Below, piece by piece: positions 7,876 through 36,869 of a stretch of 37,854 nucleotides of DNA (positions are counted from its first letter, which is position 1; every line of letters begins with the position of its first letter). The position numbers and the translations under genes are program-made. The DNA is from an uncultured delta proteobacterium (GTDB taxonomy: Bacteria > Bdellovibrionota_C > UBA2361 > CAIXSY01): contig CAIXSY010000334.1 of the NCBI GenBank assembly GCA_903922175.1, forward strand, positions 1 to 37,854, given 5' to 3'. The notes under the pieces are model-generated. The model searched no databases, had not been told where the DNA came from, and worked only from the letters and a program-made list of their open reading frames with translations.

Positions 7876-7883
7876 GGCCAAGC

Positions 7884-8864: not shown

Positions 8865-9374
8865 CCTCACGGTTGTCCATTAGTGCAGATTTTCCTATTT
8901 AGTATCTGTCCGGCAATTCAGTCTTTGGAGATCCTTCGCCGCGTAACGACTTGGTATTATTCGAAGCAGTTTTCGGCTCTGGATAGTTCCTGGCCATTTT
9001 TTGCTATTTCCGGACAGGCTCTAATTAAGACAATAGAAATTCATAACTACTCCCCGCTCATCAAACTGTGCAAATAGCAACAATAAGTGACCATTCTGAG
9101 AACAGATGACGCCTATGTCCAAGGTCGAACGCCGGGCTCCGGCAAGCACCGTCGAGTCGACGTGAGACGTCGACGTTTTACGTCCGGCTGACATCAGCGT
9201 TAGCCGATTAGGGGCGAGCAGTTAGCTTAGGGCCAGACACCTAAAGGCCGCCGTCTTCGCTCACTTTTCACCACAGGTACGGGGGGAGTTACCCCTAATG
9301 ATTTTTCCTAGTCCTGCCGAAATTAGTAGTACGCACTAAAGGGGGGGCTTCGCCCCGTGCGCACAACGGGGCAT
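8865..9374. other. 510-bp gene-free stretch with several hairpins
   Basis: No credible gene lies here; the 64-codon frame at 8883-9077 has no coding character. From 9131 on there are consecutive hairpins. GCCGG/CCGGC spans 9131-9143. A perfect 8-bp GTCGACGT/ACGTCGAC with loop GAG spans 9156-9174 and is followed by GTTTT. CGGCTGAC/GTTAGCCG with one G-T pair spans 9185-9206. GGGGC/GCCCC spans 9344-9356, just before the next gene. The hairpin at 9156-9174 could terminate ole transcription; the rest could be a structured leader or an unrecognised RNA. Confidence 0.5.
9156..9179 (+). terminator. possible terminator downstream of oleD
   Basis: A perfect 8-bp stem (GTCGACGT / ACGTCGAC) with a GAG loop is followed by GTTTT. 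It is 290 bases after the oleD stop, so its link to that transcript is uncertain. Confidence 0.4.
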
Positions 9375-11066
9375 ATGGCTGAAATACTAAAGAAAACCCG
9401 CAAAATACTTCTGTTCAACAACCTGTCACCGGGTGATGTCGTGGCGATGACGGCTGCGGTGCGCGACTTGCACCGTGCTCACCCCGGGGAGTTTGTGATT
9501 GGGGTACACTCCTCCGCGGGTGAGATTTGGGATAACAACCCGTATATTACTAAGTTGCCAATTAAGCTTGAGCCACTTGGAGACCAGACGGAGGCAGGAT
9601 CGAAGCATGAGGTTCTGATCAAGCGCGCCAAAGTAAAAATAGTTCTCGATGATCCCGAGATAGAAGTTTTTGACTGTGAATACAGCGGCGATTATCCTGC
9701 CTCGATCAATCGCTGCAATACTAATGCCTTCCACTTCATTCATGGATATGCGCACGACATTGGAAGGAAGTTGGGGGTCAAAATCCCGATCACCGAATAC
9801 AATGGCGATATTCACATCTCCGAGCAGGAGCGTGGCTGGATGTCGCAGATTGAAGAGAGGGGGATCAGAAGCAACTTCTGGGTAGTACTAGGTGGTGGAA
9901 AGTTCGACTTTACTGCCAAGTGGTGGGATCCAGCTCAGTATCAGAAGGTAATTGACCACTTCCTCGAGCGCATACTTTTTGTGCAGTGCGGCGAAGTTTC
10001 ACACCACCACCCACGTCTTAAAAACGTGATCGACCTCGTCGGTAAAACCGACATCCGTCAGTTCATTCGCTTGATTTATCATGCCGACGGCGTTCTTTGC
10101 CCGGTCACCTTTGCTATGCATCTTGCTGCGGCAGTGCCGATGCGACCCTTCGATAACTATGGTCGACGTAAGCCACCGCAGCGTGCGTGTGTTGTGCTCG
10201 CCGGTGGACGTGAGCCGACGCACTGGGAGGCGTATCCTTTCCATCAGTATATACACAGCACCGCGAGTTTGCCATGTTGCCGGGATGGGGGGTGTTGGAA
10301 GAGCCGCTGTCAAAAGGTCAACGATAACGACCCCAAGGACGAAAATTTATGCGACAGTCGGATCAAAGTAGCGCCGGATCTGTTTATTCCGAAATGCCAG
10401 ACTATGATCCGTGCGGAGACGGTGATTGGGAGGATTAAGCTTTATTATTCCGGTGGGCTGTTTCAGTATAATGAAGTCAATGACTACTCGAAGCCAGTCG
10501 TCGAGAGACGTGAACGCCCCCAACCGGATCGACACTGTTTGCGCTATCTTATTGAGCACTTTTGCCCCACCTCACTTCTTGATGTCGGGTGTGATCGAGG
10601 AGGGATTATCTCGGCTGCGCTTGAACAGGGCATCGACGCTTACGGATTAGGTCAGGGCACGCGGATTCTATTCACCGATGATGTGCGGGTGCCGAAGTCA
10701 CGTCTCTCTGTGTTTGATCTGAGCCTGGATCATTGGAAAAGCCCGCATCAATTTGATCTCGTTTGGAGCGCTCGGCCCGATGAGCTTGCGGGGCCGGAGA
10801 TGTGCGCCAATTTTATCACGACGATACGGGAGAACCTCTGTAGCGAGGGTGTTCTCTTTCTCACTCGTGATAGCACGTGGCGAGTGCCGGCGGCGGCGGA
10901 GCCGGACGACGAATGGATCAGTCGCTGGACGGCGCGGATTAGCGAGCAGGGATTCCAGCTCCTTGAGACCGAGTCGCTCAATGTGCGTGCGGTCGCCACG
11001 GACGAGCAATTTAAAAGATGTGCTCTCATTTTCAAAAAAACGTCATTCCCTCTAGTAACAATTTGA
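9375..11066 (+). CDS. GT9-like glycosyltransferase fused to a SAM methyltransferase
   Basis: The 563-aa protein has two parts. Residues ~8-365 resemble GT9 (ADP-heptose/LPS transferase-like). They start with KILLFNNLSPGDVVAMTAAVRDL and reach the donor-site region 'LVGKTDIRQFIRLIYHADGV...MHLAAAVP'. A Cys-rich segment CCRDGGCW...C...C...IPKC follows, shared with the paralogue at 13963. Residues ~395-555 are a class I methyltransferase with the SAM motif LLDVGCDRGG near 400-410 and an acidic/Asp post-motif. The likely role is transfer of a sugar and methylation of it or of the glycan during surface or flagellar glycosylation. I chose the ATG at 9375; the in-frame GTG at 9357 sits in a GTGCGCAC palindrome. 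Only five bases separate it from the next gene. Confidence 0.75.
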   Translation: MAEILKKTRKILLFNNLSPGDVVAMTAAVRDLHRAHPGEFVIGVHSSAGEIWDNNPYITKLPIKLEPLGDQTEAGSKHEVLIKRAKVKIVLDDPEIEVFDCEYSGDYPASINRCNTNAFHFIHGYAHDIGRKLGVKIPITEYNGDIHISEQERGWMSQIEERGIRSNFWVVLGGGKFDFTAKWWDPAQYQKVIDHFLERILFVQCGEVSHHHPRLKNVIDLVGKTDIRQFIRLIYHADGVLCPVTFAMHLAAAVPMRPFDNYGRRKPPQRACVVLAGGREPTHWEAYPFHQYIHSTASLPCCRDGGCWKSRCQKVNDNDPKDENLCDSRIKVAPDLFIPKCQTMIRAETVIGRIKLYYSGGLFQYNEVNDYSKPVVERRERPQPDRHCLRYLIEHFCPTSLLDVGCDRGGIISAALEQGIDAYGLGQGTRILFTDDVRVPKSRLSVFDLSLDHWKSPHQFDLVWSARPDELAGPEMCANFITTIRENLCSEGVLFLTRDSTWRVPAAAEPDDEWISRWTARISEQGFQLLETESLNVRAVATDEQFKRCALIFKKTSFPLVTI

Positions 11067-11071
11067 GATAC

Positions 11072-13195
11072 ATGACACTTGAATCCGAGGCTGTGAACAG
11101 TCCAGCGTTGTCAGCACAAGAGTCACTCTTGGGGGGGGCCGTGTCTCATATTGAGCGAAGAGAGTTTGAGCTCGCTGAGCTGGCTCTGCAAGTAGTGCTG
11201 CAAAAAGATCCAGGTTGCCTGTCGGCTGTTTGTTATTTGGCCGATGTTCGTTTTGAACTCGGCATGTGTGACGCCGCTCTGCAGCTTCTCTGCGCGTTGG
11301 TTAAAGAGCACTCGGATTATGTTCATGGCTACGAGACGCTGGGGGTCTTGCTGCTGCGGCAGGAAAAGTTTAGCGAGGCCCTGCCTCTCTTGCTTCGCGC
11401 TGTCGATCTGGGATCGGCTACTCACGCCATGCTGAATAATCTGGCAGTGGCCTTGCATAAGACCGGGCATTTAGCCGAGGCAGAAGCTGTTTTTATAAAA
11501 CTGATGGAGAGTGCTCCTTACTATCCTGAAGCACGCAACAATCTCGGTAATTTATTTCGCGACCAGCATAAGCTCGATCGGGCACTAGCGGAGTATTACC
11601 GTGCCGTCGCTTACCGCGCGGCTTATCCCGAGGCATATAGCAACATGGGGAATGTGCTGTTTGACCTAGGTCGCTACCCAGAGGCGGCAATCCGTTACCA
11701 ACAGGCTCTGGAGTTTGATTCTCATAATGCGGATACCTGGATGCGCTTGGGGCGTACGCTGTATGCCCAGGGGGACATGGCGCAGGCGCGGCTTCGATTT
11801 GAGCAGGCTGGACGCCTTCGTGCGGATTGGGCGGCACCGGTTTTTGAGGCGGCATTCTGCCTTGCGCCTATTATTCCGAGCCTTGAGGCGATCCAACACA
11901 TGCGCCGTCAATTAGAGATCGAGTTGACCAGCATAGCACTGTCAGGAAGGACGCTCAGTGATCCTCTGCGAGAGATCGCCAACATTAATTTCTACTTGGC
12001 CTATCATGGCGAGGACGATCTTGATTTGCAGAGAAAGACCGCGGCGGCCTTTCTCGTGGCTTGTCCCAGGCTGGCGTTTACCGCCCCACATTGTGCCGGC
12101 AGTCGATGTGAGGCGGGCCATGGGAGAAAGATTAAACTAGGGATTCTCTCGAAACACCTCTACCGGCACACCATTGCGCAGCTGTGGCGCGGATTGCTAA
12201 CTGAGATCTCTCGTGAGCAATTCGAGGTGCATGTTTTTACTATAGGTTCTCAAGAGGATTCTTACGCACAGATAATCAGGGAGCACGCCGACAGCACCAC
12301 GACGCTTCCCGATACCTTAGCTGGTGCGCAGCAGGCTATCGCCGCACGAGAGCTCGATATCCTGCTCTATCCGGATATCGGCATGGATCCGACCAGCTAT
12401 TTCTTAGCCTTTGCGCGGCTGGCCCCTGTGCAGTGCATGTTCTGGGGGCATCCAGATACGAGTGCAGTGCCGACAATTGATTATTTCCTTTCAGGCCGCC
12501 ACTTGGAGACAGACCAAGCCCAGAGTCATTACAATGAAAAACTAGTTCTACTTGAGCGCCTACCGATCTACTACTATCATCCAGCTGAGGTTGTTCTTCC
12601 TCGCGCACACTTTGGCTTGGACGAAAATTCGACTGTGTATCTCTGCGCGCAGAGTCTTTTTAAGTTTCACCCTGATTTTGACTACGCTTTGGGAGAGATT
12701 CTTCGTCGTGATCCGCGGGGTAAGTTGGTTTTGCTAGCCGCCCCGTCAGCGATCTGGAATGAACAGCTCTTGCAGCGTTTTGAGAGAACAATCCCCAACG
12801 TTCTAAAGCGCGTGGTGTTCGTGCCCCGTCTCGATGCAGACGAATATCTTGGCCTGCTGCGCTGCGCTGATGTCATGCTCGATCCCGTCCACTTTGGAGG
12901 TGGCAACACTTCCTATCAGGGGCTAGCTATGGGGGTTCCGATTGTGTCCCTGCCAAGCCGCTACCTACGCGGCCGTATCACGTATGCCCTTTACGAACAA
13001 TTAGGGCTGCTCGACTGTGTTGTCGAATCGATAGAGCAGTATATCGAATTGGCCTGTCGGCTTGGGACCGAGCGCGACTTTCGTGACAGCATACGAGATA
13101 AGATTCTTGCACATAAGGGAGTTCTCTTCGAAGATAGAGAGGCAGTTGTTGAGGTAGAGGCTATCTTGGAACAGCTTTTTCGAGGGAGCTACTGA
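11072..13195 (+). CDS. TPR protein with SPINDLY/OGT-type (GT41) glycosyltransferase
   Basis: The 707-aa product (ATG at 11072, five bases after the previous stop) has about six or seven tetratricopeptide repeats over residues ~20-270, for example 'PEARNNLGNLFRDQHKLDRAL' and 'PEAYSNMGNVLFDLGRYPEA'. A GT41 catalytic region follows from ~340. Landmarks are the KLGILSKHLYRHT start with its histidine, 'APVQCMFWGHPDTS', 'FKFHPDFD', and the donor-binding 'HFGGGNTSYQGLAMGVPIVSLP' followed by RGRITYALYE. GT41 enzymes add GlcNAc or fucose to Ser/Thr of proteins in the cytosol, with the TPRs selecting substrates. Its place between GT9-like genes and a giant Ser/Thr-rich protein suggests protein O-glycosylation. 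The donor sugar is unknown. Confidence 0.88.
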   Translation: MTLESEAVNSPALSAQESLLGGAVSHIERREFELAELALQVVLQKDPGCLSAVCYLADVRFELGMCDAALQLLCALVKEHSDYVHGYETLGVLLLRQEKFSEALPLLLRAVDLGSATHAMLNNLAVALHKTGHLAEAEAVFIKLMESAPYYPEARNNLGNLFRDQHKLDRALAEYYRAVAYRAAYPEAYSNMGNVLFDLGRYPEAAIRYQQALEFDSHNADTWMRLGRTLYAQGDMAQARLRFEQAGRLRADWAAPVFEAAFCLAPIIPSLEAIQHMRRQLEIELTSIALSGRTLSDPLREIANINFYLAYHGEDDLDLQRKTAAAFLVACPRLAFTAPHCAGSRCEAGHGRKIKLGILSKHLYRHTIAQLWRGLLTEISREQFEVHVFTIGSQEDSYAQIIREHADSTTTLPDTLAGAQQAIAARELDILLYPDIGMDPTSYFLAFARLAPVQCMFWGHPDTSAVPTIDYFLSGRHLETDQAQSHYNEKLVLLERLPIYYYHPAEVVLPRAHFGLDENSTVYLCAQSLFKFHPDFDYALGEILRRDPRGKLVLLAAPSAIWNEQLLQRFERTIPNVLKRVVFVPRLDADEYLGLLRCADVMLDPVHFGGGNTSYQGLAMGVPIVSLPSRYLRGRITYALYEQLGLLDCVVESIEQYIELACRLGTERDFRDSIRDKILAHKGVLFEDREAVVEVEAILEQLFRGSY

Positions 13196-13204
13196 AATAG
13201 TCAA

Positions 13205-13244: not shown

Positions 13245-13327
13245 ACGAAGGACGCGAAGGGAGGTGTTACTTGTCCGAGTTGTTAGTCCTATGAAATAGC
13301 GCGATACTGTCGCATGGAGAAAATGCT

Positions 13328-13966
13328 ATGGCTCTTAAAAAATGTGTCTTTGTGCTCGCGACACCAGAGTATCAGCCGGAGATGTGCTCCTATACCCTCC
13401 CCAACCTAAAGGCCTACGCCGATCGTCTGCAGGCAGATTTTGTTCGGATTCAGGAGCGGCGTTTCCCCGATTTTCCGATAAACTACGAGCGCATGCAGAT
13501 CTATGAGCTAGGCAAGGGGTATGACTGGTGCATCAATATTGATGCTGATTTCTTGATTCATCCGATGATCGAGGACTTTACTGAGTGGCTCCCGGCAAAT
13601 ACCGTAGGGAATTGGTGGTACAGCAAGGCAAGTAATTTTTTCAACGTTGATCGAAATATCTACTTTGAACGCGATGGCCGGGACTATGGAATCGTCGATT
13701 GTTTGCTAGCGACCTCAAAATTAACCCACGACCTGTGGGAGCCGTTGCCGGGCCCATGCTCCGAGTATGCTGATATCTGCTTGCACAATGGAGAGCGTCG
13801 GATATCCGAGTTTTGCCTTTCGCAGAATGCCGCTAAATATGGCCTGAAAATTGCGGGGATGCTACGCACGCCGGAATATGCACAGCACATTAATTGCACC
13901 ACAGAAGAGCAGGGTAATCCGGCTGATATAGCGCGTGAAAAGCTGAGATCGTGGGGGCTTCTATGA
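13328..13966 (+). CDS. small DxD glycosyltransferase (GT-A type)
   Basis: The 212-aa protein begins with a Rossmann-like strand (KKCVFVLATPEY). It carries a DxD motif, D72-A-D74 in 'CINIDADFLIHP', preceded by 'YERMQIYELG'. This arrangement is typical of small GT-A nucleotide-sugar transferases in which DxD binds the metal. The short length means it is essentially only the catalytic fold, with no membrane segment. GGAG eight bases before the ATG gives a clear start. Its stop overlaps the next start (ATGA), so it is co-translated with the GT9-like paralogue. The family number and donor cannot be fixed from sequence alone. Confidence 0.7.
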   Translation: MALKKCVFVLATPEYQPEMCSYTLPNLKAYADRLQADFVRIQERRFPDFPINYERMQIYELGKGYDWCINIDADFLIHPMIEDFTEWLPANTVGNWWYSKASNFFNVDRNIYFERDGRDYGIVDCLLATSKLTHDLWEPLPGPCSEYADICLHNGERRISEFCLSQNAAKYGLKIAGMLRTPEYAQHINCTTEEQGNPADIAREKLRSWGLL

Positions 13967-15096
13967 ATCAGCCGATTGCTGCAATGCGCAAACTTCTCCT
14001 CGTGAATCTCGGTAGTCCTAGCCAGGTGCTGCTCTCGACCGCAGCGGTGCGCGATCTGCACGCCGCGTACCCGGGGAGATTCTTAACTGACGTTTATAGT
14101 GAATGTCCGGAAATTTGGGAGCATCATCCGCAGATCACCAAAATGGCTTGGCATGTCGAACCGCTGAGCGGGCCACGTGACATGCTCGCTCGTCATGAAG
14201 AGGCGGTTATCGGACGTGAGTTTAAGATAGTCAAGGAAGACCCCGAACTAGAGGTGGTGTTTTGTGAGCAGGCCGGGGAGCATCCGAGCTCGATTACCCA
14301 AAGTAATCGCGGCGCCTATCATGCGATTCATAGCTATGCCCATGACCTCGGAGCCAAGCTTGGCGTCGATTTTGAAGCCAGCAAGTTCTGCGCTGACATT
14401 CATATTTCGGCAGTCGAGCAATCGTGGATGTCGCAGCTCGAAGAGATCGGAATTCGTGACAGTTTTTGGATCGTCCATGCCGGTGGCAGCCGGGATATGC
14501 CAGCGCGGCGCTGGCCGACTGATTGCTACCAAGAAGTTATCGAGGCTTACCGTGGAAAGATTACCTTCGTCCAGGTTGGACGGGCGAATGAGGGCCACCC
14601 AGCTCTGCGTCATGTCGTTAACCTCGTTGGGAAAACTAATCTACGCCAGCTGATTCGGTTGATGTACCACGCAACAGGTGTCCTCTGCGCTCCGTCATTG
14701 ATGATGCATCTGGCTGCAGCGGTGCCGCTTCGACTTTTTGATAATCAGCGACGGCGCAACCCGCAGCACCGCCAGTGCGTTGTTGTTGCTGGGGGCAGAG
14801 AGCCGTGGCAATGGTATAACTATAGTACTCATCAGAGTCTGCACACCAATGGTATGTTGCCGTGCTGCGCCAGCGGCGGATGCTGGCGTACTAACGTCAA
14901 ACCTGTTGCGCTAGGCGCTTTGCCCGATGACGACTGTTGTGTGACGCCGGTTCGGACGGGAAACGACGTGCTTATTCCGAAGTGCATGCAGATGATAACT
15001 CCAGAGATGGTAATTGAGCGCGTGGGTATTGCCTATGAAGGCGGAGCGCTTTGGTATAACGAGGCAACAACGTCGACCGTGGTGCGAAGTACCTGA
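13963..15096 (+). CDS. GT9-like glycosyltransferase (paralogue of 9375-11066 N-half)
   Basis: The 377-aa product aligns end to end with the first ~370 residues of the gene at 9375. Shared blocks include 'AAVRDLHAAYPG', 'HSYAHDLGAKLGV', 'WMSQLEEIGIR', 'LVGKTNLRQLIRLMYHATGVLC', 'MHLAAAVP', 'VVAGGREP' and the Cys cluster CCASGGCW...CC...IPKC. It lacks the methyltransferase half. The family reads as ADP-heptose transferase-like (GT9). The start at 13963 is chosen for the ATGA overlap with the preceding gene and a GGGGG stretch upstream. It probably adds a second sugar in the same glycan. It is convergent with the methyltransferase at 15113, with a 16-base gap. Confidence 0.78.
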   Translation: MNQPIAAMRKLLLVNLGSPSQVLLSTAAVRDLHAAYPGRFLTDVYSECPEIWEHHPQITKMAWHVEPLSGPRDMLARHEEAVIGREFKIVKEDPELEVVFCEQAGEHPSSITQSNRGAYHAIHSYAHDLGAKLGVDFEASKFCADIHISAVEQSWMSQLEEIGIRDSFWIVHAGGSRDMPARRWPTDCYQEVIEAYRGKITFVQVGRANEGHPALRHVVNLVGKTNLRQLIRLMYHATGVLCAPSLMMHLAAAVPLRLFDNQRRRNPQHRQCVVVAGGREPWQWYNYSTHQSLHTNGMLPCCASGGCWRTNVKPVALGALPDDDCCVTPVRTGNDVLIPKCMQMITPEMVIERVGIAYEGGALWYNEATTSTVVRST

Positions 15097-15112
15097 AATT
15101 GATACGGGTTAC

Positions 15113-15886
15113 CTACTCCCTAGCGATATGCCACGCAGGCATCGGTACATCAAAGTAGGGGCCGGAGATCTCGCGTCGGCGGTAGACAATTGCTGGATGT
15201 GCCAATCCGAAGGAGCCGTCGGCTAGCGGAGCCGGCCGACCATCATCACCGATGACCATGCGCCGTACGATATCATTCTGTTGCAGCTCTTCGGGGAGGA
15301 AGAGGTCTCCCTGCGGCTCAAACAGGCGCTCAATCTCGGCCCGAATTGCAACTCCGAGTATGCCGTCGTCAAAGAAAGAACAGCAGTTATCGAATCGGGG
15401 CGCCATTCGACTATAGCTCGTACATACTATAAAGGTGCCGCCGGGGCGCAGCCAATAGTGCATCCGGCTCAGTGCTTCACGTAGGCTAATCGCGGGGATA
15501 TGCTGCAAGACGTAAACGCAGTAGACGAGATTCACTTGGTTGTGGCACTGCTGCGGTAGGATCGGCTGGAAGCGTGGATTGTTCACATAACGCCGCGCAT
15601 GCTCAAGCTGTACTGGAGAGTCGTCCACTCCGAGAATCTCAATATTTGGTTGGCGTTCGAGAATGGCTTTGGCTAGCCGTCCTACGCCGGTGCCGTAGTC
15701 CAGCAGGCGCTTGTCTTCAGGCATAACGTGCCGAAGGATTGCTTGAGCAAAAACCGGTGTTTCCTGCTCCCAGCGGGTTTCAAAAGGAATGTTGTTACAT
15801 AGATCGATGACGCTGCGGCGAGCAGCATCAAAGGCGCGCTCTTTGAAGAGTGGGTGCTGAGAAGGATGCTTGCTATTTTCGGTCAC
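15113..15886 (-). CDS. class I SAM-dependent methyltransferase
   Basis: This Rossmann-fold methyltransferase of about 257 aa has the SAM motif LLDYGTGVGRLAKAI, the acidic 'ILGVDDSPVQLEHA' second strand, 'VNLVYCVYVLQHI' as motif post-I/IV and 'LRPGGTFIVCTS' as the strand-5 motif. It resembles small-molecule or sugar O-/C-methyltransferases; the substrate is unknown. The start is ambiguous. The GTG at 15886 overlaps the end of the upstream gene by 14 bases and has AGTGAG upstream, while a TTG at 15910 would add eight residues. It is the second gene of a minus-strand pair facing the glycosyltransferases, so a role in modifying the same glycan is inferred. Confidence 0.78.
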   Translation of the reverse strand: MTENSKHPSQHPLFKERAFDAARRSVIDLCNNIPFETRWEQETPVFAQAILRHVMPEDKRLLDYGTGVGRLAKAILERQPNIEILGVDDSPVQLEHARRYVNNPRFQPILPQQCHNQVNLVYCVYVLQHIPAISLREALSRMHYWLRPGGTFIVCTSYSRMAPRFDNCCSFFDDGILGVAIRAEIERLFEPQGDLFLPEELQQNDIVRRMVIGDDGRPAPLADGSFGLAHPAIVYRRREISGPYFDVPMPAWHIARE

Positions 15887-16484
15887 CTGGTATTTTCTCA
15901 CTTTTTTCAAAAGTCGAATCGTCTTTCCAAGCCAGCTGTCGCGTACTTTTGCGCACGATGCTTAAGCCCGGTTGAAATGGAAGGGTTAGAATCTCACAGC
16001 GCTCCCCGTAGTTTTGACGAATGAAGTGTGCGGTGCGCCAACTGTCCGAACACTTGTCAGCGCGGGTAAAATATTCATTGATCGGATAGGTGTCGTGTAG
16101 GCAAATTATGCCGTCTTCAATCACATACGGGAAGAGCCGGTCAAAATCACGCAGTGAGGATTCATGCGAGTGGTCGGCATCAATCAATGCTAGATCAACT
16201 TGCAGGTTGAGTCCGGGGGCTTGATCGAAGAACTGCTCGGTGCTCATTTCGTAGAATTCGACGGGGAGTTGGTTGAAGGCCTGGTCTTTTTTAAGATCAA
16301 CGCCGATAATGCGTCGCGCCAAGGGTAACATATTTTTGATTATCGGCCCGTAACGCACGCCAAGTTCTAGGTAAACTCGTGGCTTGATCCACTGCGCTAG
16401 GAAGGTGATGAAGCTGGTGTGGTCAAAGCACTCATCCGGCGGTGGCAGGTTGCGCAGATGAATTGGGATCGGGACACTTTCCAT
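15873..16484 (-). CDS. class I SAM-dependent methyltransferase (Methyltransf_24-like)
   Basis: The 203-aa protein has the SAM motif 'VYLELGVRYGPI', then 'IIGVDLKKDQ', the characteristic 'VDLALIDADHSHESSLRDFDRLFPYV' and 'DGIICLHDTYP'. The IDADHSHE...LHD pattern is typical of the Methyltransf_24 group, which often acts on sugars or peptide-bound groups. No signal peptide is present. It is the first gene of the minus-strand methyltransferase pair, and its end overlaps the next gene. The ATG at 16484 has only a weak GGTAAG upstream. The context suggests glycan decoration. Confidence 0.8.
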   Translation of the reverse strand: MESVPIPIHLRNLPPPDECFDHTSFITFLAQWIKPRVYLELGVRYGPIIKNMLPLARRIIGVDLKKDQAFNQLPVEFYEMSTEQFFDQAPGLNLQVDLALIDADHSHESSLRDFDRLFPYVIEDGIICLHDTYPINEYFTRADKCSDSWRTAHFIRQNYGERCEILTLPFQPGLSIVRKSTRQLAWKDDSTFEKSEKIPGDRK

Positions 16485-16994: not shown

Positions 16995-19900
16995 ATGGTT
17001 ACCATAAAAGGATTTTCCGGCATAAATGGAGAAGCCGGAGGCGTGGTCGGGCTCGGAAAGGGGCAAGGCAGCTCCTCGCTGCGCTTGTCTATCGCGGCGG
17101 GGGATACGAGTGCCGAACCATTCGTTGATGCGGCAAGCTTTAGCGCAGTTACTGCAGAGGGAGTGAAGGCTAGTCCTCTTAGCTATCGTCAGACCATTTC
17201 ATCCAATTTTTATTCGCAGGTCAATGATGCCACTACGTATCTGAGTGGGGTGGTTACCCGTATTCAGGACCTAGGATCCAGTCTTAGTAATGCGATCACC
17301 ACTGAAATACGGCAGGCAATTAATGCCGAAATCAGCAGCCTCACCTCGACGTATAATCAGCAACGTGGTGGTGTGTCTGGAGTCACCGAGGCCTACACCA
17401 CATCTGATATTGCGCAGTTTCAGTATGCTCTTTCGAGCGCCTCAAGCAGCTCAAGTGTGTACTCAACAGCCTCCGTTGTCGATTCTCTTTCCCTCTCAAG
17501 CGTAGCCTCGCTTATGTCGCGTGTGGTCACTGGGCTGGCAGCCGGGCAGTCATCGTCGAGTAGTATGAATATCTCCTCGACCAGTGTTGCCAACGTCTTA
17601 ACCGCGGTTGTATCTTCGATTGCCACAAATACTTCATCGTCGAGTAGCCTGAATAACTCGTCGACGAGCGTGGCTAATGCGTTAATAGCGGTGACTAATA
17701 GTGTAACGACCAATCAGGCGTCGTCGGTCAGTCTGAATAATTCGTCGACGAGCGTGGCTGGTGCGCTTATAGCGGTGACTAATAGTGTAACGACCAATCA
17801 GGCGTCGTCGGTCAGTCTGAATAATTCGTCGACGAGCGTGGTAGGTGCGCTTATAGCGGTGACTAATAGTGTAACGACCAATCAGGCGTCGTCGGTCAGC
17901 CTGGACAACTCATCGACAAGTGTCACCAACGCGCTAACGGCAGTGACCAACAGCGTCACGACCAATCAAACCTCATCTGTCAGCTTGAACAACTCATCGA
18001 CGAGTCTGGCTGGTGCGCTAACTGCGCTGACTAATAGTGTTACGATCAATCAGGCGTCATCGGTTAGCCTGAATAACTCCTCGACGAGTGTGGTCAATGC
18101 GTTAACAGCGGTGACTAATAGTATCACGACTAACCAGGCGTCGTCGGTCAGTCTGAATAACTCATCGACCAGTGTGATCAACGCCCGAACGGCGGTGACC
18201 AATAGCATTGTGGTGAACCAAGCATCTTCAGTCAGCTTGAACAACTCGTCGACAAGCGTTCAGGTCGCGTTGAACGCCACTTCTGCCGTAATTTCTGCCA
18301 ACCAGGCCTCGTCGACCGATCTAAACACCTCCTCCGTTAGCATTGCGAACGCCATCACCGTTGTGAACGCCTCAATAACAGCCAACACGACATCATCGAA
18401 CAGCCTGAATACTTCATCGACGAGTGTTGCCGGTGCGCTGACGGCGGCGACCAACAGCATCGCCACCAATACGACTTCATCGACTAGTCTGAATGCCTCA
18501 TCCACGAGCGTTGATGGGGCGCTGATCGCAGTGCGGAGCAACAGCTCTGCCTTCTCAGCCTCGGGATCTAGCCTTGGAAACTCATCCACGAGCATTGCGA
18601 ACGCAGCCCGAGCTCTCAATATTTCTAGCGATTCTCTCTCTTTTTCGTCAATGGTCATTTTAAATGTTTCATCGACAAGTGTGCTCGTCGCGCAGATGGC
18701 AGTGAACAGTAGTATTGCTTCCAATGTCGCTTCATCCGGCAGCCTAAACAACTCATCAACGAGCATAGCAGGCGCGCTGACGGCAGTAACCAACACCATC
18801 GTCACCAACCAAGCATCCTCGGTTAGTCTTAACAACTCATCAACGAGTGTGGTTAACGCCCGCACCGCAGTGGCCAATAGCATTGTTGCAAACCAGGCAT
18901 CATTGAGTAGTCTCAACAACTCTTCAACGAGCGTCGTTAATGCTCGCACCGCAGTGGCCAATAGTATTACTACCAACCAAGCGTCATCGGTTAGTCTCAA
19001 CAACTCTTCAACCAGCGTCGCTAACGCGCAGACGGCGGTGACCAACAGCATTACCGCTAACCAAGCCTCCTCGGTCAGCCTGAATAACTCCTCGACTAGT
19101 GTAGTCGGTGCGCTAACGACGATGACCAACAGTATCGTCGCCAATCAAGCCTCATCGGTCAGCCTGAATAACTCCTCGACTAGTGTGGCCGGTGCGCTAA
19201 CGACCGTGACCAACAGTATAGTCGCCAATCAAGCCTCGTCGGTCAGCCTTAATAACTCGTCGACGAGTGTCGCTAACACATCGACGGCGGTGACCAACAG
19301 CATTGCCACCAACCAAGCATCCTCGGTTAGCCTGAACAACTCCTCAACCAGTGTGGTCAACGCACGAACGGCGGTGACCAATAGCATTACCACCAACCAG
19401 GCATCTTCAGGTAGCCTGAATAACTCCTCGACGAGTGTGGCTAATGCGTTGACGGCGGTGATCAATAGCATTGCGACGAATCAAACCTCATCGGTCAGCC
19501 TGAATAGCTCCTCGACGAGTGTGGCCAACGCGGGAACGGTGGTGACCAATAGCATCGTCGCGAATCAAACATCTTCAGGTAGCTTAAATAACTCCTCGAC
19601 AAGCGTGGTAAACGCGCGGACCGCTGTAATTAACAGCATTACAACTAACCAAGTGTCCTCGGCTAGTCTCAACAACTCATCGACGAGCATCGCCAATGTC
19701 TTCGTTGTCTTGTCGGGAAGCTCTGCCTCAAGCATGTCTTCTTCAAGCGTTGTCTCTGCTTCTTCGGCGAGTGCTGATATCGCGCTGAACACAGTGCGCG
19801 GCAGCTTAAATAACGCTTCTGGGACCATCTCGGCAGTCTCGGCAACACTTTCATTGGCAAGTGTTGGGGGTGCTAGGACTGATTCTTCAGCATCGGGTAG

Positions 19901-20255
19901 CTTAACGGCGGAGCTGCAGCGTCAGATAGCCCCTCTTGCCGTTAACTTTAATTCGGTCAAAACGCTCGCCTCACTGACGAATGAACGCCTTGCTGCGCGC
20001 AGCTACCAGATGGCAGCGGAGCAGGCCGTAGTTGATGTGGCGCAAGCCAATCTCGATAGCGTGGTTCAGCCCGAGAATAAAATTACGCTCGACGTGAACT
20101 CCGGTACGCGACTACGCGACTCTGAAGTCGCCGATAAATTGGCAGAGACAATCGCCGAGGCGGTGCGTAATAATCCTAAGCTTGGATTGGCTGCTGCGGG
20201 TGGATTGCAGACCCTAAGTGTCGAAACATTGCTAGGCCAAGCAAACAAAGAATAG
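16995..20255 (+). CDS. giant Ser/Thr/Asn-rich heptad-repeat protein
   Basis: The 1086-aa protein is not assignable to a known family. The ATG at 16995 (MVTIKGFSGING) is preceded by GGAG only three bases away; the upstream TTG start is less likely. Residues ~1-185 are a unique N-terminal region with a helical part (SLSNAITTEIRQAINAEISSL). Residues ~185-914 are 26 copies of a 28-residue unit with consensus ASSVSLNNSSTSVVNALTAV plus TNSITTNQ. The last ~170 residues hold a charged helix (NERLAARSYQMAAEQAVVDV) and an ENKITLDVNSGTRLRDSEVADKL tail. In each unit, positions 5, 12, 19, 26 and 9, 16, 23 follow an a/d heptad pattern, so a long, uncharged coiled coil is likely. There is no signal peptide, as for flagellin-type cargo. 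It may be a filament, sheath or surface protein and an O-glycosylation target. Confidence 0.8.
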   Translation: MVTIKGFSGINGEAGGVVGLGKGQGSSSLRLSIAAGDTSAEPFVDAASFSAVTAEGVKASPLSYRQTISSNFYSQVNDATTYLSGVVTRIQDLGSSLSNAITTEIRQAINAEISSLTSTYNQQRGGVSGVTEAYTTSDIAQFQYALSSASSSSSVYSTASVVDSLSLSSVASLMSRVVTGLAAGQSSSSSMNISSTSVANVLTAVVSSIATNTSSSSSLNNSSTSVANALIAVTNSVTTNQASSVSLNNSSTSVAGALIAVTNSVTTNQASSVSLNNSSTSVVGALIAVTNSVTTNQASSVSLDNSSTSVTNALTAVTNSVTTNQTSSVSLNNSSTSLAGALTALTNSVTINQASSVSLNNSSTSVVNALTAVTNSITTNQASSVSLNNSSTSVINARTAVTNSIVVNQASSVSLNNSSTSVQVALNATSAVISANQASSTDLNTSSVSIANAITVVNASITANTTSSNSLNTSSTSVAGALTAATNSIATNTTSSTSLNASSTSVDGALIAVRSNSSAFSASGSSLGNSSTSIANAARALNISSDSLSFSSMVILNVSSTSVLVAQMAVNSSIASNVASSGSLNNSSTSIAGALTAVTNTIVTNQASSVSLNNSSTSVVNARTAVANSIVANQASLSSLNNSSTSVVNARTAVANSITTNQASSVSLNNSSTSVANAQTAVTNSITANQASSVSLNNSSTSVVGALTTMTNSIVANQASSVSLNNSSTSVAGALTTVTNSIVANQASSVSLNNSSTSVANTSTAVTNSIATNQASSVSLNNSSTSVVNARTAVTNSITTNQASSGSLNNSSTSVANALTAVINSIATNQTSSVSLNSSSTSVANAGTVVTNSIVANQTSSGSLNNSSTSVVNARTAVINSITTNQVSSASLNNSSTSIANVFVVLSGSSASSMSSSSVVSASSASADIALNTVRGSLNNASGTISAVSATLSLASVGGARTDSSASGSLTAELQRQIAPLAVNFNSVKTLASLTNERLAARSYQMAAEQAVVDVAQANLDSVVQPENKITLDVNSGTRLRDSEVADKLAETIAEAVRNNPKLGLAAAGGLQTLSVETLLGQANKE
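17547..19736 (+). repeat. 26 tandem 84-bp repeats
   Basis: Units of 84 bases encode the 28-residue repeat, with 29-residue units at numbers 2 and 14. Adjacent units early in the array (17634-17885) are nearly identical at DNA level, which points to recent duplication. Units 9-14 are the most diverged. The reverse strand stays open through much of the array because of the codon pattern; those frames are shadows. Confidence 0.9.
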
Positions 20256-31259: not shown

Positions 31260-31308
31260 ACATTGTCTCCGGGCAGCTGTGTCTTTAGGCCGCAGTGCCA
31301 ATAAAACT

Positions 31309-31330
31309 AGTGCAGCGCTCGCGCTGCACT
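31309..31330 (+). other. hairpin in the motA 5' leader
   Basis: AGTGCAGCGC/GCGCTGCACT is a perfect inverted repeat (9 bp around a CTCG loop) between the predicted start site and the motA ribosome site. It is followed by TTAT, not a T-tract, so mRNA stabilisation or translational control is more likely than termination. Confidence 0.55.
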
Positions 31331-31348
31331 TTATCAGGATTGTTACTT

Positions 31349-32146
31349 ATGGCTCTTACTATGGTTTCACGATGGAAGGGTTCCGCAGGCGAGAGCAACC
31401 TTGACCGCGGGGTTGTCGCTGGTTTGTCGCTTTCGGCGTTGATGATTATCCTGGGCATGTTAATGGGCAGCGGTGGCGTGCTTAATTTTGTAGACATAAG
31501 CAGCGTTCTCATCGTCTTCGGTGGCACGCTTGGGGCGACGCTGGTTAATTTTAGTCCCGGTGACATGATCTATGCATGGGAGGCCTTTAAATCGGTCCTG
31601 CTTAAGCGCCCGAACTCTCCCACGGGGCGTATTCGTTATATGGTCGACCTGTCGCATGCGGTGCGCACCCGAGGGCGAGTAGGTGCGTTAGAGGGTGAGG
31701 CTGGAATTACAAAAGACGCTTTTCTTAAGCTTGCCATGGAGATGACCGTCGATGGACAGGCCTCAACCGAAGTGCAGCGCATTCTAGAGACCGAGATGCG
31801 CATAGCCAATGACCGTGCTTTTCGGGCAGTCCAGGTATTCGAAACTATGGGCAATTACGCGCCTGCATTGGGATTAATTGGAACTGTTATCGGGTTGATT
31901 CAGATGCTTGGGGCTCTAGGTGATCCGAGTCGAGTCGGTCCGGCCATGGCGACCGCGCTTGTAACCACATTTTACGGGGCAATTGCTGCTAATTTAGTGT
32001 TCCTCCCGGTGGCTGGAAAGCTGCGTAATCGGGCTGAGGAAGAGGCGCTGGTCAAAGCTATTACTATTGAAGGCATGATTGGAGTCGGCAATGAGGAGAA
32101 TCCACTGGTGATCGAACAGCGCCTGCAGAGCTTTATCACCGTATAG
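31349..32146 (+). CDS. motA: MotA/PomA flagellar stator subunit
   Basis: The 265-aa protein forms the ion channel and force-generating ring of the stator with MotB. The ATG at 31349 has AGGA nine bases upstream; the longer frame adds a poor extension. TM1-2 are 'VVAGLSLSALMIILGML' and 'VDISSVLIVFGGTLGATLV', a cytoplasmic loop (residues ~70-170) follows, and TM3-4 are 'APALGLIGTVIGLIQML' and 'VTTFYGAIAANLVFLPVAG'. These four match the MotA/PomA family. It looks PomA-like in its first TM pair, hinting at the sodium type, but that cannot be decided here. It is first in the operon after the sigma-54 promoter. Confidence 0.92.
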   Translation: MALTMVSRWKGSAGESNLDRGVVAGLSLSALMIILGMLMGSGGVLNFVDISSVLIVFGGTLGATLVNFSPGDMIYAWEAFKSVLLKRPNSPTGRIRYMVDLSHAVRTRGRVGALEGEAGITKDAFLKLAMEMTVDGQASTEVQRILETEMRIANDRAFRAVQVFETMGNYAPALGLIGTVIGLIQMLGALGDPSRVGPAMATALVTTFYGAIAANLVFLPVAGKLRNRAEEEALVKAITIEGMIGVGNEENPLVIEQRLQSFITV

Positions 32147-32159
32147 ATTGAGGCTAGCG

Positions 32160-32675
32160 ATGTCCGCTCCGTCTTTTATTACGCAGCTAACTGGAAGTAA
32201 CGAGTGTGCGCTGTCACGCTCGTTTACCTTTCAATATACCTCGATGATCCTTATAATTCTGACGTTTATTACCGGAACCTTAAGTGTTCCAGCACCGCAG
32301 GCGCTGCATCCAGTGGCGCTCCAGGTCCCGGCCCCACAGCCGACTCCGGCAGCGCTGCGTTCTCGGCACACTGTTAATCTCACTGAGAATGCCATCAGCT
32401 TTAGTCCTACATTTGATGCTCAGGGAAAGTTGATTGCAGATGATACCTTGCGTGCCATCGAGGCAGTCGTAGCGCGCCACGACGTGAGTGCGGAGATTGA
32501 GCTGTTGGCCTCTGAGGGTGAGTTCGCCGGAGCTACGCTGCGGGCGATCGAGATCCATCGTTTCTTAAGAGCGTCGGGTGTGCCGCCAAGAGCAGTGCGG
32601 GTCTTTGTCGTGCTTAGTAGCACCCCGCTCGAGAATTTGGTAGCTCGATGTAGTTTCACCAGGGAGGAGTCGTGA
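32160..32675 (+). CDS. MotB-like protein lacking the ion-carrying Asp
   Basis: The 171-aa product starts at an ATG with GAGG six bases upstream; the TTG at 32148 is rejected. It has one TM (residues ~22-42, 'FTFQYTSMILIILTFITGTL'), a Pro-rich linker and a periplasmic region that resembles a reduced OmpA/MotB domain ('LRAIEIHRFLRASGVPPRAVRVFVVLS'). Aligned with the next gene, the TM position of the conserved Asp is Ser (S28), so it cannot carry protons or sodium. The peptidoglycan-binding residues of a full OmpA domain are also degraded. It overlaps the true motB by four bases (GTGA) and is cotranslated. It might be an accessory or scaffold stator protein. Confidence 0.72.
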   Translation: MSAPSFITQLTGSNECALSRSFTFQYTSMILIILTFITGTLSVPAPQALHPVALQVPAPQPTPAALRSRHTVNLTENAISFSPTFDAQGKLIADDTLRAIEAVVARHDVSAEIELLASEGEFAGATLRAIEIHRFLRASGVPPRAVRVFVVLSSTPLENLVARCSFTREES

Positions 32676-33295
32676 GCTTCCCCGCGCTTCCGCGCCGCAG
32701 AGTATCGAAGCCCTCAGTATGGTTGGTAACGTTTGGCGATCTTTTGACACTACTACTTTGCTTCTTCATCGCCACGATGACGTTGCATCCCTCCCATAGT
32801 CCATCGACACGACGGGCAACTGCTCGAAATTCCACAATTTCTGGAAAAGAGAGTGTTCTTGACGCTGGGCAGCGCGCCCTTGGCACCACGCTTGCACTTA
32901 CACAGGATAGGCAAAGCGTCTTGCATCAGCCGCCAGAGGAGAAGATCGAGGTAAAAGTCGCTCTTTCTGATGACAGTTTCGCGCAAGTTCGCAGCAAGTT
33001 GAGTGATACGGCCAAGCGCAAATTAAATAACGCAGTGTTTACAGATGGTTATAGTGTTCGGGCAGTAGTAGTACACGCCTGTGCCGACAAAAAACGCTAC
33101 GCGGCAGAAGAAACTGCATCACTATCTGTAGAAAGAGCGCTTAAGGTCAGAGGTCAACTTATTGACAGTGGCGTAGCGCCAGAGGTGGTTAGAGTTCGTG
33201 CCCTTGGTGAACAATGTGCGGCTCTTCCGGCACATGCTAGGGGAGGCAACGCGGTAGTGGTGGAAATTACTCAGGTTCGCAAGCATCATGGCTGA
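32672..33295 (+). CDS. motB: MotB flagellar stator subunit
   Basis: The 207-aa protein anchors the stator to peptidoglycan and carries ions. Its TM 'WLVTFGDLLTLLLCFFIATMTL' contains the essential Asp at D23 in the standard TF-x-D context. The periplasmic part ends in an OmpA-like domain ('SLSVERALKVRGQLIDSGVAPEVVRVRALGEQ'). It starts at a GTG preceded by AGGGAGGAG and overlaps the previous gene's stop. It is shorter than E. coli MotB (308 aa), the linker being reduced. It overlaps fliL by eight bases. Confidence 0.9.
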   Translation: MSFPALPRRRVSKPSVWLVTFGDLLTLLLCFFIATMTLHPSHSPSTRRATARNSTISGKESVLDAGQRALGTTLALTQDRQSVLHQPPEEKIEVKVALSDDSFAQVRSKLSDTAKRKLNNAVFTDGYSVRAVVVHACADKKRYAAEETASLSVERALKVRGQLIDSGVAPEVVRVRALGEQCAALPAHARGGNAVVVEITQVRKHHG

Positions 33296-33899
33296 CGATA
33301 AGAAGCAACAAAAAGAGAAGGGCAAAGACGCCAAAGAAGCTAAGCCGCCCGAGGGTGATGCTGAGGCTTCAGCGGCGGCGCCAGCCTCTAAGAGCAAGAA
33401 GACGCTCTTCATCGTTATCATCGCTATTGCTATGGGCATTGCTTTGCTCGTGGTGGTTGGTGTCGTTGTCAGTATGCGGAGCAAGTCACAGGCTGCTGCA
33501 GCGGAACATGAGCTAAGTCCTGAGGCGGCGGCCCAGGGCACCGTTGTTCAGCCCAAGCTTGAAGGCAGCGGCGAAGAGGATGAGGTTGTTGAGGGTGAGG
33601 AGCCGATGGGGGCTATTCTTCCGCTCGATACCTTTGTCGTGAACCTGAGCTCCGGCAAATACCTGCGTATCCAGATTCAGTTTGAATTTAACGGTCGTGA
33701 TATTCCCAAGCGTATGTACGCAAAGTTGGTGCCATTGCGTGACGCAATTATCACGGACCTGTCGTCGAAGAGTGCGGACGACTTAGGCGTGGGCAAGGGC
33801 AGGGAAGGGCTGCGCAACGAGCTGCGCGACACGGTTAATGAGATGCTCGGCAAGGAAGAGGTCAAAAAAGTCTATTTTACTCAGTTTGTGATTCAGTAG
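33288..33899 (+). CDS. fliL: FliL, stator-associated flagellar protein
   Basis: The 203-aa single-pass protein surrounds the stator and helps torque and ion flow. It has a charged cytosolic start (~1-38), one TM ('TLFIVIIAIAMGIALLVVVGVVV'), an acidic linker and the C-terminal FliL domain ('LPLDTFVVNLSSGKYLRIQIQFEF...RDAIITDLSSK...LRDTVNEML...VYFTQFVIQ'). The ATG at 33288 lies within motB. This is standard stator-switch operon order and there is nothing unusual except a long acidic linker. Confidence 0.92.
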   Translation: MADDKKQQKEKGKDAKEAKPPEGDAEASAAAPASKSKKTLFIVIIAIAMGIALLVVVGVVVSMRSKSQAAAAEHELSPEAAAQGTVVQPKLEGSGEEDEVVEGEEPMGAILPLDTFVVNLSSGKYLRIQIQFEFNGRDIPKRMYAKLVPLRDAIITDLSSKSADDLGVGKGREGLRNELRDTVNEMLGKEEVKKVYFTQFVIQ

Positions 33900-33910
33900 T
33901 GAGGGCGTAA

Positions 33911-34942
33911 ATGAACCAAGTATTAACACAGGACGAAATCAACTCACTACTGCGTGGGCTCTCCGAGGGAGATGTCGAGACCGATAGTATTGAAGCTGTC
34001 GATCAGAACTCGAAGAACGCAAAGAAGTTCGATCTTGCCAACCAGGAGCGCATCATCCGCGGCCGTATGCCGACCATGGAATTAATCCATGATCGCTTCG
34101 CGCGCCAGTTCCGTACCGCATTCTCGAAGTTTCTTGGACGTACGACATTCGCTAACGTCGGTGGTATTGAAATGATCAAGTTCGGCTTGTTCATGAAGAA
34201 GCTGCCGCTGCCATCGTCGTTGCACATCTTTCGTATGCCACCGCTCTCCGGCTACGCTCTTATGGTGGTTTCCTCACCACTTGTCTTCGGTATTATAGAC
34301 AGCCTCTTCGGCGGCTCTGGTCAAAATAAGGTCAAGATTGAAGGCCGAGAGTATACGCCGATCGAGATCCGTTTAATCGGCAAAGTGGTGATGATGGCTC
34401 TCGACGTGCTTAAAGATGCCTGGGCTCCGATTCACCCGGTGGATTTCGTCTACGTGCGCAGTGAGTTTAATCCATTGGCGGTAGCGATTGTGCCGCCGAC
34501 CGATGTGGTGATTACCGTTACGGTTGAGGTAGAGCTTGAGCAAGAGACAACGACGCTCACTATCTGCACGCCATACTCGACGATCGAGCCTTTACGCAGC
34601 AAGCTAGCCACGGGATTTCAAAGCACTCGGCTTGAGGTCGACACAGGCCTTGCACGTCGCATGGAGGTCAGTGTTAAGCAAACGACCGCCAATATGTCGG
34701 TGCAGCTGGCTACGGGTGCAATTAAAACGGCCGATTTCCTCAAGCTGCAGAAGGGCGACATCATCACCCTTGATACCAATCCTTCCGAGGAAGCGATGCT
34801 GATGATTGAGGGAACGCCTAAATATTACTGCTACGTAGGGTCGTATCGCGGCAACCGGGCGGCGCGCATGACGCGGCCGATCCCACGACGAGATCTGATT
34901 AATTTTCGCAACAAACAGGAGCTACTGAAACATGGCGGATGA
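33911..34942 (+). CDS. fliM: FliM flagellar motor switch protein
   Basis: The 343-aa switch component binds phospho-CheY to set rotation direction and forms the C-ring. The N-terminal 'VLTQDEINSLLRG' is the CheY-binding peptide. The middle domain includes 'GRMPTMELIHDRFARQFRT' and 'DSLFGGSGQN', and the C-terminal SpoA part holds 'LKLQKGDIITLDTNP' and 'YRGNRAARMTRPI'. GAGG lies before the ATG. It overlaps fliN by 11 bases. All expected parts are present. Confidence 0.95.
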   Translation: MNQVLTQDEINSLLRGLSEGDVETDSIEAVDQNSKNAKKFDLANQERIIRGRMPTMELIHDRFARQFRTAFSKFLGRTTFANVGGIEMIKFGLFMKKLPLPSSLHIFRMPPLSGYALMVVSSPLVFGIIDSLFGGSGQNKVKIEGREYTPIEIRLIGKVVMMALDVLKDAWAPIHPVDFVYVRSEFNPLAVAIVPPTDVVITVTVEVELEQETTTLTICTPYSTIEPLRSKLATGFQSTRLEVDTGLARRMEVSVKQTTANMSVQLATGAIKTADFLKLQKGDIITLDTNPSEEAMLMIEGTPKYYCYVGSYRGNRAARMTRPIPRRDLINFRNKQELLKHGG

Positions 34943-35294
34943 TATGCAAGAACAGTTGGAAGGAGTAGCCAAAGCTGCAGGTGAAGTTTCTGCGGCGGCC
35001 GCTGGTGCAGGGCAACGTCCGGGGACGGGCAAGGGCCAGACGCTCGAATTCATTCTCGACGTTACCCTCCAGGTAACGGTCGAAGTGGGTCGTGCGCGGA
35101 TGACAATTCAGGACCTGCTTCAGCTGGGCCAAGGCTCGGTGATCGAGCTTGAGAAGCTCGCCGGTGAGCCGCTTGATATATTTATCAACGGTAAGCAGGT
35201 GGCGCGTGGTGAAGCGGTTATCGTCAATGAAAAATTTGGCGTGCGCTTGACTGATATTATCTCGCCGGAAGACCGGGTTGAGACTTTGGCGTAA
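34932..35294 (+). CDS. fliN: FliN flagellar motor switch protein
   Basis: The 120-aa C-ring component has an Ala/Gly-rich start and the SpoA domain 'LDVTLQVTVEVGRARMTIQDLLQLGQGSVIELEKLAGEPLDIF', then 'VARGEAVIVNEKFGVRLTDI', matching FliN. GGAG nine bases upstream of the ATG lies inside fliM. FliN caps the switch complex with FliM and docks the export apparatus. Five bases separate it from fliO. Confidence 0.95.
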   Translation: MADDMQEQLEGVAKAAGEVSAAAAGAGQRPGTGKGQTLEFILDVTLQVTVEVGRARMTIQDLLQLGQGSVIELEKLAGEPLDIFINGKQVARGEAVIVNEKFGVRLTDIISPEDRVETLA

Positions 35295-35299
35295 TACAG

Positions 35300-35812
35300 A
35301 TGAAACTTCAAGCCAGCTACATAGGGCTTATCCTCGGAGCCACGATCAGCACTGCGGTGTTGTTTGCGGCGAGTGCGAGCGCACAGGCAGCAGTGCCAGC
35401 GAGCGACTCCACCCAAGCGGTGCAGGGAAAGCTTGAGCGTACTCGCGAGCTCCTCAAGGATGTGCAGGGAGAGAAGGGCAAGGCAGGAGAGGCCAGTCTC
35501 GGGGAAGACCTCACCCATACGGGCTATCGCGTTTTCGAGGGCCTGCTACTCTGCCTCGGTGTTTTAGCTATCGGCGTTTACCTGGCCAAGCGCTTCGGCC
35601 TCAAGGGCGCTGTGAGCGCGGGACGCAAAATTAAAATTGTCGAGCGGACACCACTTTCGGCACGCACATCGCTTGTCTTAGCCCAGGTTGAGGGCAAATC
35701 TATTCTTCTCGCCGTGGGGCCTGACAATGTCTCGTTCGTAGAACTGAAAGATGGTGGTCTTTATGGTGATGCAGTTGATCTGGCGGCGCTAGCCTCGGGT
35801 AAGGAGGCGTAG
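35300..35812 (+). CDS. fliO: FliO, flagellar export assembly protein
   Basis: The 170-aa protein helps assemble the FliP5 export-gate core. It has a signal/anchor start ('YIGLILGATISTAVLFAASASAQAA'). A second TM ('VFEGLLLCLGVLAIGVYLA') precedes the cytosolic FliO domain with 'RKIKIVERTPLSARTSLVLAQVEGKSILLAVGPDNVSFVEL'. A typical FliO has one TM; here a cleavable signal before it is possible. No ribosome site is obvious. Its stop abuts the fliP ATG. Confidence 0.88.
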   Translation: MKLQASYIGLILGATISTAVLFAASASAQAAVPASDSTQAVQGKLERTRELLKDVQGEKGKAGEASLGEDLTHTGYRVFEGLLLCLGVLAIGVYLAKRFGLKGAVSAGRKIKIVERTPLSARTSLVLAQVEGKSILLAVGPDNVSFVELKDGGLYGDAVDLAALASGKEA

Positions 35813-36580
35813 ATGAAACGCCTGACCGCAGTACTTCTTGCGCTCTCTCCTTTTTTCCTCTTCGGTGTTGCCCCTGTCTTTGCTGAGGGGAGCTTGCCCG
35901 ATCTAGCTATTAACATAGGCGGCTCTCAGCTCGCCTCTGACGGCGGCATCTCAGCCAGTCTCAAGATATTGTTTCTGCTGACGATGCTTTCGTTCGCACC
36001 GGCGATGATTTTGACGATGACCTCCTTTACGCGTATCGCCGTTGTTTTGGGGATGACCCGTACGGCTCTCGGTACACAATCGATGCCGCCGAATATGGTG
36101 ATCACGGGGCTTTCACTTTTCTTGACGTTCGCCATCATGAGTCCCGTTTTTGAGAAAAGCTACAACGAGGGGATTCAGCCATATCTCGATGGCAAGATGG
36201 AGGATAAGGAGGCGATAGAGAAGTCGTTTGCTCCGTTAAAGCAGTTCCTTGTGCGTCACGCGCGTGAGAAAGACCTCGCCCTGTTCCTCGACATCACGCG
36301 TTCAGAAGCGCCCAAGGAGGAGCATGATATCCCTTGGCAGGTGGCGATTCCGGCGTTTGTGCTCAGTGAGCTTAATCTCGCTTTCCAGATCGGCTTTTTG
36401 ATTGCGCTACCATTCCTGGTGCTCGACATGGTGGTCTCCTCCGTGCTGACCTCGATGAGCATGATCACACTGCCGCCTGTGGTGATCTCACTACCACTCA
36501 AACTGATGCTCTTTGTGGTTGTCGACGGCTGGCATTTAATTATCGGCTCTTTGGTGCAGACCTATCATGTAACCGGCTAG
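35813..36580 (+). CDS. fliP: FliP, flagellar type III export gate protein
   Basis: The 255-aa core export-gate protein has an N-terminal signal peptide ending near 'VAPVFAEG'. The FliP signatures follow: 'TMLSFAPAMILTMTSFTRIAVVLGMTR', 'QSMPPNMVITGLSLFLT', the periplasmic/cytosolic loop, 'IPAFVLSELNLAFQIGFLI' and 'LPLKLMLFVVVDGWHLIIGSLVQTY'. GGAGG lies before the ATG, which directly follows the fliO stop. It is full length and ordinary. Confidence 0.96.
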   Translation: MKRLTAVLLALSPFFLFGVAPVFAEGSLPDLAINIGGSQLASDGGISASLKILFLLTMLSFAPAMILTMTSFTRIAVVLGMTRTALGTQSMPPNMVITGLSLFLTFAIMSPVFEKSYNEGIQPYLDGKMEDKEAIEKSFAPLKQFLVRHAREKDLALFLDITRSEAPKEEHDIPWQVAIPAFVLSELNLAFQIGFLIALPFLVLDMVVSSVLTSMSMITLPPVVISLPLKLMLFVVVDGWHLIIGSLVQTYHVTG

Positions 36581-36590
36581 CGGAGAACGT

Positions 36591-36860: not shown

Positions 36861-36869
36861 TCATTCGCC

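Follow-up and report, generated by a model that had tools for sequence, protein, structure and literature searches.

From what did a giant and almost uncharged repeat protein arise, and what would a bacterium use it for? The question is raised by a gene at positions 16995-20255 of a stretch of 37,854 nucleotides (the window) from a lake bacterium, which the initial annotation had described as encoding a near-uncharged protein of tandem units without a signal peptide. The open reading frame is real, with a start ATG at 16995, a GGAG ribosome-binding site directly 5' of it and a stop at 20255, and it can be divided as follows.

16995..20255, + strand: giant repeat protein gene (1086 aa), whose product has an N-terminal segment like flagellin D1 and, behind it, 26 units built on heptads
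16995..17081, + strand: N-terminal 29 residues (MVTIKGFSGINGEAGG...), Gly-rich where flagellin has its D0 helix
17082..17369, + strand: flagellin D1-like segment, about residues 30-125, with helices predicted by AF2 at 70-98 and 103-125
17574..19760, + strand: 26 tandem units, each of four heptads, 25 of them 28 residues long and one 29
19761..20252, + strand: C-terminal helical region, in which TRLRDSEVADKLAE, starting at 20106, bears a suggestive likeness to the SRIRDADVA motif of flagellin

The 26 units occupy residues 194 (nt 17574) to 922, have the consensus SSTSVANALTAVTNSITTNQASSVSLNN, and give autocorrelation maxima at 28, 56, 84 and 112 residues. The span from 194 to 895 is 701 residues, or 25 x 28 + 1, and there is thus a single 29-residue unit in the protein (residues 530-558) and not two as had been annotated. 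The repeats are composed of Ser (27%), Asn (15%), Thr (14%), Ala (13%) and Val (12%), and with 1.9% charged residues (about 2%) their description as near-uncharged was accurate, as was that of the N-terminus: no signal peptide can be seen in the sequence, where the highest 19-residue hydropathy within the first 60 residues is 0.8. Compared with each other, the units have diverged to pS = 0.72, which is near saturation, at a pN of 0.23, which shows that purifying selection acts on the protein sequence of the units and that the array does not stem from recent slippage. The giant protein had no significant match in Pfam, NCBIfam, PHROGs, PDB sequences or phage genomes.

The family is present in four of the 46 genomes of the class that were searched, all from one order, namely the window's own genome and those that we call G018, G026 and G027. 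All are metagenome bins (the window's own with an estimated contamination of 6.8%), and two of the four members are incomplete. The homologue of G027 (ErkenSummer_bin-0574, a lake metagenome bin) has 3286 aa and about 110 units, which have diverged as in the 1086-aa protein (pS 0.76, pN 0.31), and that of G018 has 38% Ser with poly-Ser runs. The motif M[VA]xIKGFxG is common to all three members that have an N-terminus (alignment A3). DUF5344 and Phasin_2 were considered as domains at the termini of the homologues and rejected, the matches being far below the cut-offs. The contigs of G018 (G018:C9) and G026 (G026:C20) end within the repeats of the giant gene, and together with a contig of a further genome (G013:C96) they form a set (L015, L016, L179) in which the assembly breaks within the giant gene or shortly ahead of where it would be expected. 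Short-read surveys will probably miss the family, as contigs break at this repeat gene.

The fold of the repeats is best approached through their register. In G027 the units alternate between 28 and 21 residues, and 105 of the 106 distances between units are divisible by seven (57 of 28, 38 of 21 and 10 of 49, with one of 22), while the hydrophobic spectrum, taken over 2952 residues, has its maximum at 3.50 residues. In the 1086-aa protein, 114 of 167 V/I/L/M/F residues lie on one 3-4 (heptad) ladder of 8 of the 28 positions (S2 V5 L9 V12 I16 N19 S23 L26), of which S2, N19 and S23 are polar, in line with the initial annotation, where polar residues had been placed at some a/d positions. These regularities strongly support the view that the repeats are a heptad sequence, and most likely they would form a long α-helical coiled-coil rod, presumably oligomeric, with a surface of Ser, Thr and Asn instead of charged residues. 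As a continuous helix, and only as such, the 729 residues would measure 108 nm at 0.1485 nm per residue, and the G027 homologue about 438 nm, so that the annotated rod of about 100 nm stands under this condition. Counted against a coiled-coil rod are the Arg found at ladder position 9 in 5 of 25 units, and the low helix propensity of sequences rich in Ser, Thr, Asn and Val.

Structure prediction gave contradictory answers, and of the annotated coiled coil it is the heptads that stand, and not yet the fold. For the full 1086-aa protein AF2 returns low confidence over most of the chain and a β-structure at about residues 640-850, with strands of 25 residues and 3-residue turns at pLDDT 80-94, whereas the 28/21 homologue is predicted as a nearly continuous helix with a mean pLDDT of 49. 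The repeats could accordingly be read as a β-solenoid with one 28-residue coil per unit, a short stiff β-rod behind the flagellin-like segment; the near-identical units are rich in Ser, Thr, Asn and Val with a conserved Asn, and the known heptosyltransferase substrates AIDA-I and TibA are β-helices (PMC4358343). We consider this unlikely, since AF2 gives confident and unrealistic β-solenoids for perfect repeats, among them a randomised S/T-rich mucin repeat (PMC11795689), an artefact that the β model of the near-perfect window repeats fits, and for this reason the register is weighed above the model. A solenoid is also ill-suited to unit lengths that change only by seven and to the 3-4 hydrophobic spacing, the homologue is predicted as helical, even if with low confidence, and the best Foldseek match of the model (E=0.24) is not significant. 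The natural 28/21 repeat may be a useful benchmark for the artefact.

A second alternative to the coiled-coil rod is a glycosylated, mostly extended stalk of Ser, Thr and Asn, mucin-like or serine-rich-repeat-like and without a regular fold, which would leave the cell by the flagellar or some other route. The poly-Ser runs and high Ser content in G018, the glycosyltransferase neighbours and the low AF2 confidence for most of the chain all suit such a stalk, which we nevertheless hold to be quite unlikely, as strict ladder positions and a 7-residue register kept over 100 units are not expected of a disordered chain.

The origin of the protein is seen in the part that precedes the repeats. Residues about 30-125 align with flagellin D1 in hhalign (P=0.0016 with a first set of flagellins), and the score of 27.9 obtained with a larger set was reached by none of 150 shuffles and none of 150 heptad-phase shuffles. 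Profile searches of whole genomes are a stronger and unbiased test of this homology. A profile of the repeat family, run against 46 genomes, had one match outside the family, a true flagellin of 611 aa (E=6.9e-5). A profile of the N-terminal segment, run against 29 genomes, retrieved after the family a series of flagellins, mostly of 550-660 aa, from E=1.7e-5 onwards, and 18 of the 19 loci that were fetched (E=1.7e-5 to 0.02) proved to be flagellins, as called by N- and C-terminal flagellin domains with local HMMs. By these searches, the segment that leads up to the repeats is a homologue of flagellin D1. The giant protein does not match Pfam Flagellin_N (PF00669) at the curated cut-off, which makes it by its sequence a flagellin-derived protein rather than a standard flagellin. 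The canonical D0 N-terminal helix is absent as well, the first ~29 residues being Gly-rich, and with both of these features the protein may not polymerise or be exported as flagellin is. Those of the ~550-660-aa flagellins of the order that we read have a variable domain of FG-GAP/VCBS-like repeats (LGDVNxDGxLDI; e.g. L084 58-1893 and L138 46-1974, both on the - strand), and a literature search for flagellins with FG-GAP found no report.

At the other end of the protein, TRLRDSEVADKLAE aligns with the flagellin motif SRIRDADVAxExAE (hhalign 25.8, reached by none of 200 shuffles) and is about as far from the end of the protein as the motif is in flagellins. The C-terminal profile (A4) retrieved no flagellin from 29 genomes and the C-terminal end of the G026 homologue has no SRIRDAD-like motif, and the likeness of the C-terminus to flagellin thus stays suggestive.

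Upstream of the giant gene, at 9357-16484, sit the glycosyltransferase and methyltransferase genes of a glycosylation island.

9357..11066, + strand: GT9 (heptosyltransferase-family) enzyme with a Cys cluster and a fused methyltransferase-like domain (PF01075 E=7.5e-7; alignment A1)
11018..13195, + strand: TPR and GT41 protein glycosyltransferase, OGT/SPINDLY-like (PF13844 E=1.1e-24, over the cut-off)
13328..13966, + strand: glycosyltransferase-like protein of 212 aa with a DxD-like motif, kept in homologous islands, no Pfam match
13951..15096, + strand: second GT9 enzyme, which shares the Cys cluster of the first (PF01075 E=4.6e-10; A1)
15113..15910, - strand: class I methyltransferase (PF13489 E=6.4e-13), with a conserved place next to the giant gene in two islands homologous to this one
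15873..16484, - strand: second methyltransferase (PF13578 E=9.3e-10)

The initial annotation had suggested a search for homologues beside glycosylation genes, and such an arrangement is borne out in four genomes: the homologues are flanked by the same gene set, rearranged and with extra GT2 and GT41 genes. Among the 46 genomes, GT9 enzymes of the Cys type are confined to the same four as the giant gene and to G013, whose contig breaks off within the Cys-type GT9 gene in a position that shows synteny with G027. The Cys cluster is invariant at C307, C308, C313, C332 and C347 (alignment A1). Elsewhere, relatives of the GT9 enzymes come from Planctomycetota, Verrucomicrobiota and a small number of other groups, and in the first two of these Ser runs of at least 6 in long ORFs occur at 8 of 13 loci of GT9 relatives, compared with 1 of 13 recA loci from these genomes; in density this is 9.6 and 0.6 runs per 100 kb. 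This enrichment connects the GT9 family with Ser-rich proteins and supports, without proving, a glycosylation of the giant protein on Ser/Thr. N-glycosylation by an NGT-type enzyme was rejected, as N-X-S/T sequons are only mildly enriched in the repeat protein (57 against 45 +/- 5 in shuffles) and many units in G027 are without any; this too makes Ser/Thr the preferred sites. In Planctomycetota and Verrucomicrobiota the Cys-cluster GT9 genes were seen close to proteins that carry poly-Ser tracts, Rhs/YD-like ones among them (L020 14359-20697, L025 14337-19264, L027, L028, L029, L032-L034, L036 and L039). Literature searches for the Cys-cluster GT9 family and for heptosylation of Ser-rich proteins in Planctomycetes found nothing.

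Beyond the island, the window holds a HipBA-type toxin-antitoxin pair (1578-3028, - strand; a HipA-like kinase and its HTH partner) and genes for long-chain olefin synthesis (3896-8864, + strand), with an oleA-like ketosynthase, an oleB-oleC fusion (haloalkane-dehalogenase-like/olefin β-lactone synthetase) and an oleD-like dehydrogenase. At its end, 37742-37852, a 55-bp unit with 16-bp sub-repeats occurs twice in tandem.

How the protein would reach the outside is suggested by a further set of genes on the same contig, 11 kb from the giant gene, which includes those of the flagellar export gate.

31295..37691, + strand: flagellar operon of motA, two unassigned ORFs, fliL, fliM, fliN, fliO, fliP, fliQ and fliR (NCBIfam)

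Just 5' of this operon, at 31244-31259 (+ strand), is a perfect sigma-54-type site, TGGCACAGCCATTGCA. There are 18 flagellin matches in the window's genome and up to 36 in genomes of the order; a promoter common to the giant gene and the flagellins of its genome was looked for and not found, and in G027 and G018 flagellar genes do not adjoin the giant gene. Flagellar export, which had been proposed for consideration, now has positive evidence in the N-terminal segment homologous to flagellin D1. With no Sec signal, a flagellin-derived N-terminus, flagellar export genes and glycosyltransferases of the cytoplasmic type, the simplest account would be that sugars are attached to the protein in the cytoplasm and that the flagellar apparatus then exports it. 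The protein could instead be a cytosolic, cytoskeleton-like coiled-coil filament that is never exported, its similarity to D1 being a relic. Both the missing signal peptide and a D0 segment that is not conserved as in flagellin would agree with this, and we still find it improbable, since the flagellin ancestry and the conserved island of cytoplasmic-type protein glycosyltransferases point to export.

Our best explanation is hence a giant flagellin-like surface protein, a flagellin-derived coiled-coil rod that would receive its sugars in the cytoplasm before the flagellar type III apparatus exports it; in our judgement this explanation is about equally likely to be right or wrong. A flagellin ancestor would have kept its N-terminal D1 segment and exchanged its D0 helix for a Gly-rich leader, and its variable D2/D3 part would have given way to 26 (in a relative about 110) heptad-built units of 28 or 21 residues. 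Two GT9 enzymes and one TPR-GT41 enzyme, all soluble, would together with the methyltransferases probably modify the Ser/Thr surface while the protein is still in the cytoplasm. The protein would then pass out through the flagellar apparatus, and the rod may decorate the flagellum or the cell, form a sheath around it or stand out from it. More tentatively, and with considerable doubt, the rods could be "flagellar hairs" that project from or sheathe the flagellum, each chain 0.1 to >0.4 micrometre long (the upper figure is for the homologue, whose repeats span about 2,950 residues), with the GT9-GT41 island dedicated to modifying the heptad repeats.

A literature search for flagellins with coiled-coil repeats found nothing, and we know of no description of a rod-bearing, probably glycosylated flagellin relative of this kind. 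In its sequence the protein resembles the stalks of trimeric autotransporter adhesins, which are long, built of Asn/Thr/Ser-rich heptads and have Asn at some core positions; unlike these it has no Sec signal, YadA-type anchor or Pfam match. The GT41 enzyme shares TPR repeats and a GT41 domain over the Pfam cut-off with OGT, SPINDLY, bacterial OGT and HMW1C/NGT, all of which it matches in the PDB, although identity is only about 25-37% even among the members from these islands. The GT9 enzymes resemble the BAHT/TibC system, where a soluble GT9-like enzyme with a C-terminal Cys cluster is encoded beside a Ser-rich repeat protein (PMC4358343). Their Cys cluster is reminiscent of the four-Cys iron finger of TibC, with a different spacing (C339, C342, C358 and C370 in TibC; PMC4358343), no NCBIfam model or PDB sequence matched them to TibC, and their putative substrate is not an autotransporter. 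If our explanation is true, this would be a natural system for a soluble glycosyltransferase set acting on a repetitive heptad or Ser-rich substrate. The analysis also links the Cys-cluster GT9 family with poly-Ser proteins in several phyla. A close parallel to the protein itself is found in the giant flagellins of Bermanella marisrubri and Oleibacter marinus, recognised flagellins that form thick filaments and have large duplicated domain-extension inserts (PMC6248924). They too exceed 1000 aa and have a D1-type N-terminal segment and a large repeated insert for D2/D3; the giant protein differs from them in its replaced D0, in not matching Pfam Flagellin_N, and in an insert of 26-110 short heptad units encoded in a glycosylation island, and with it the flagellin lineage would come to include a very long, apparently glycosylated rod of tandem repeats.
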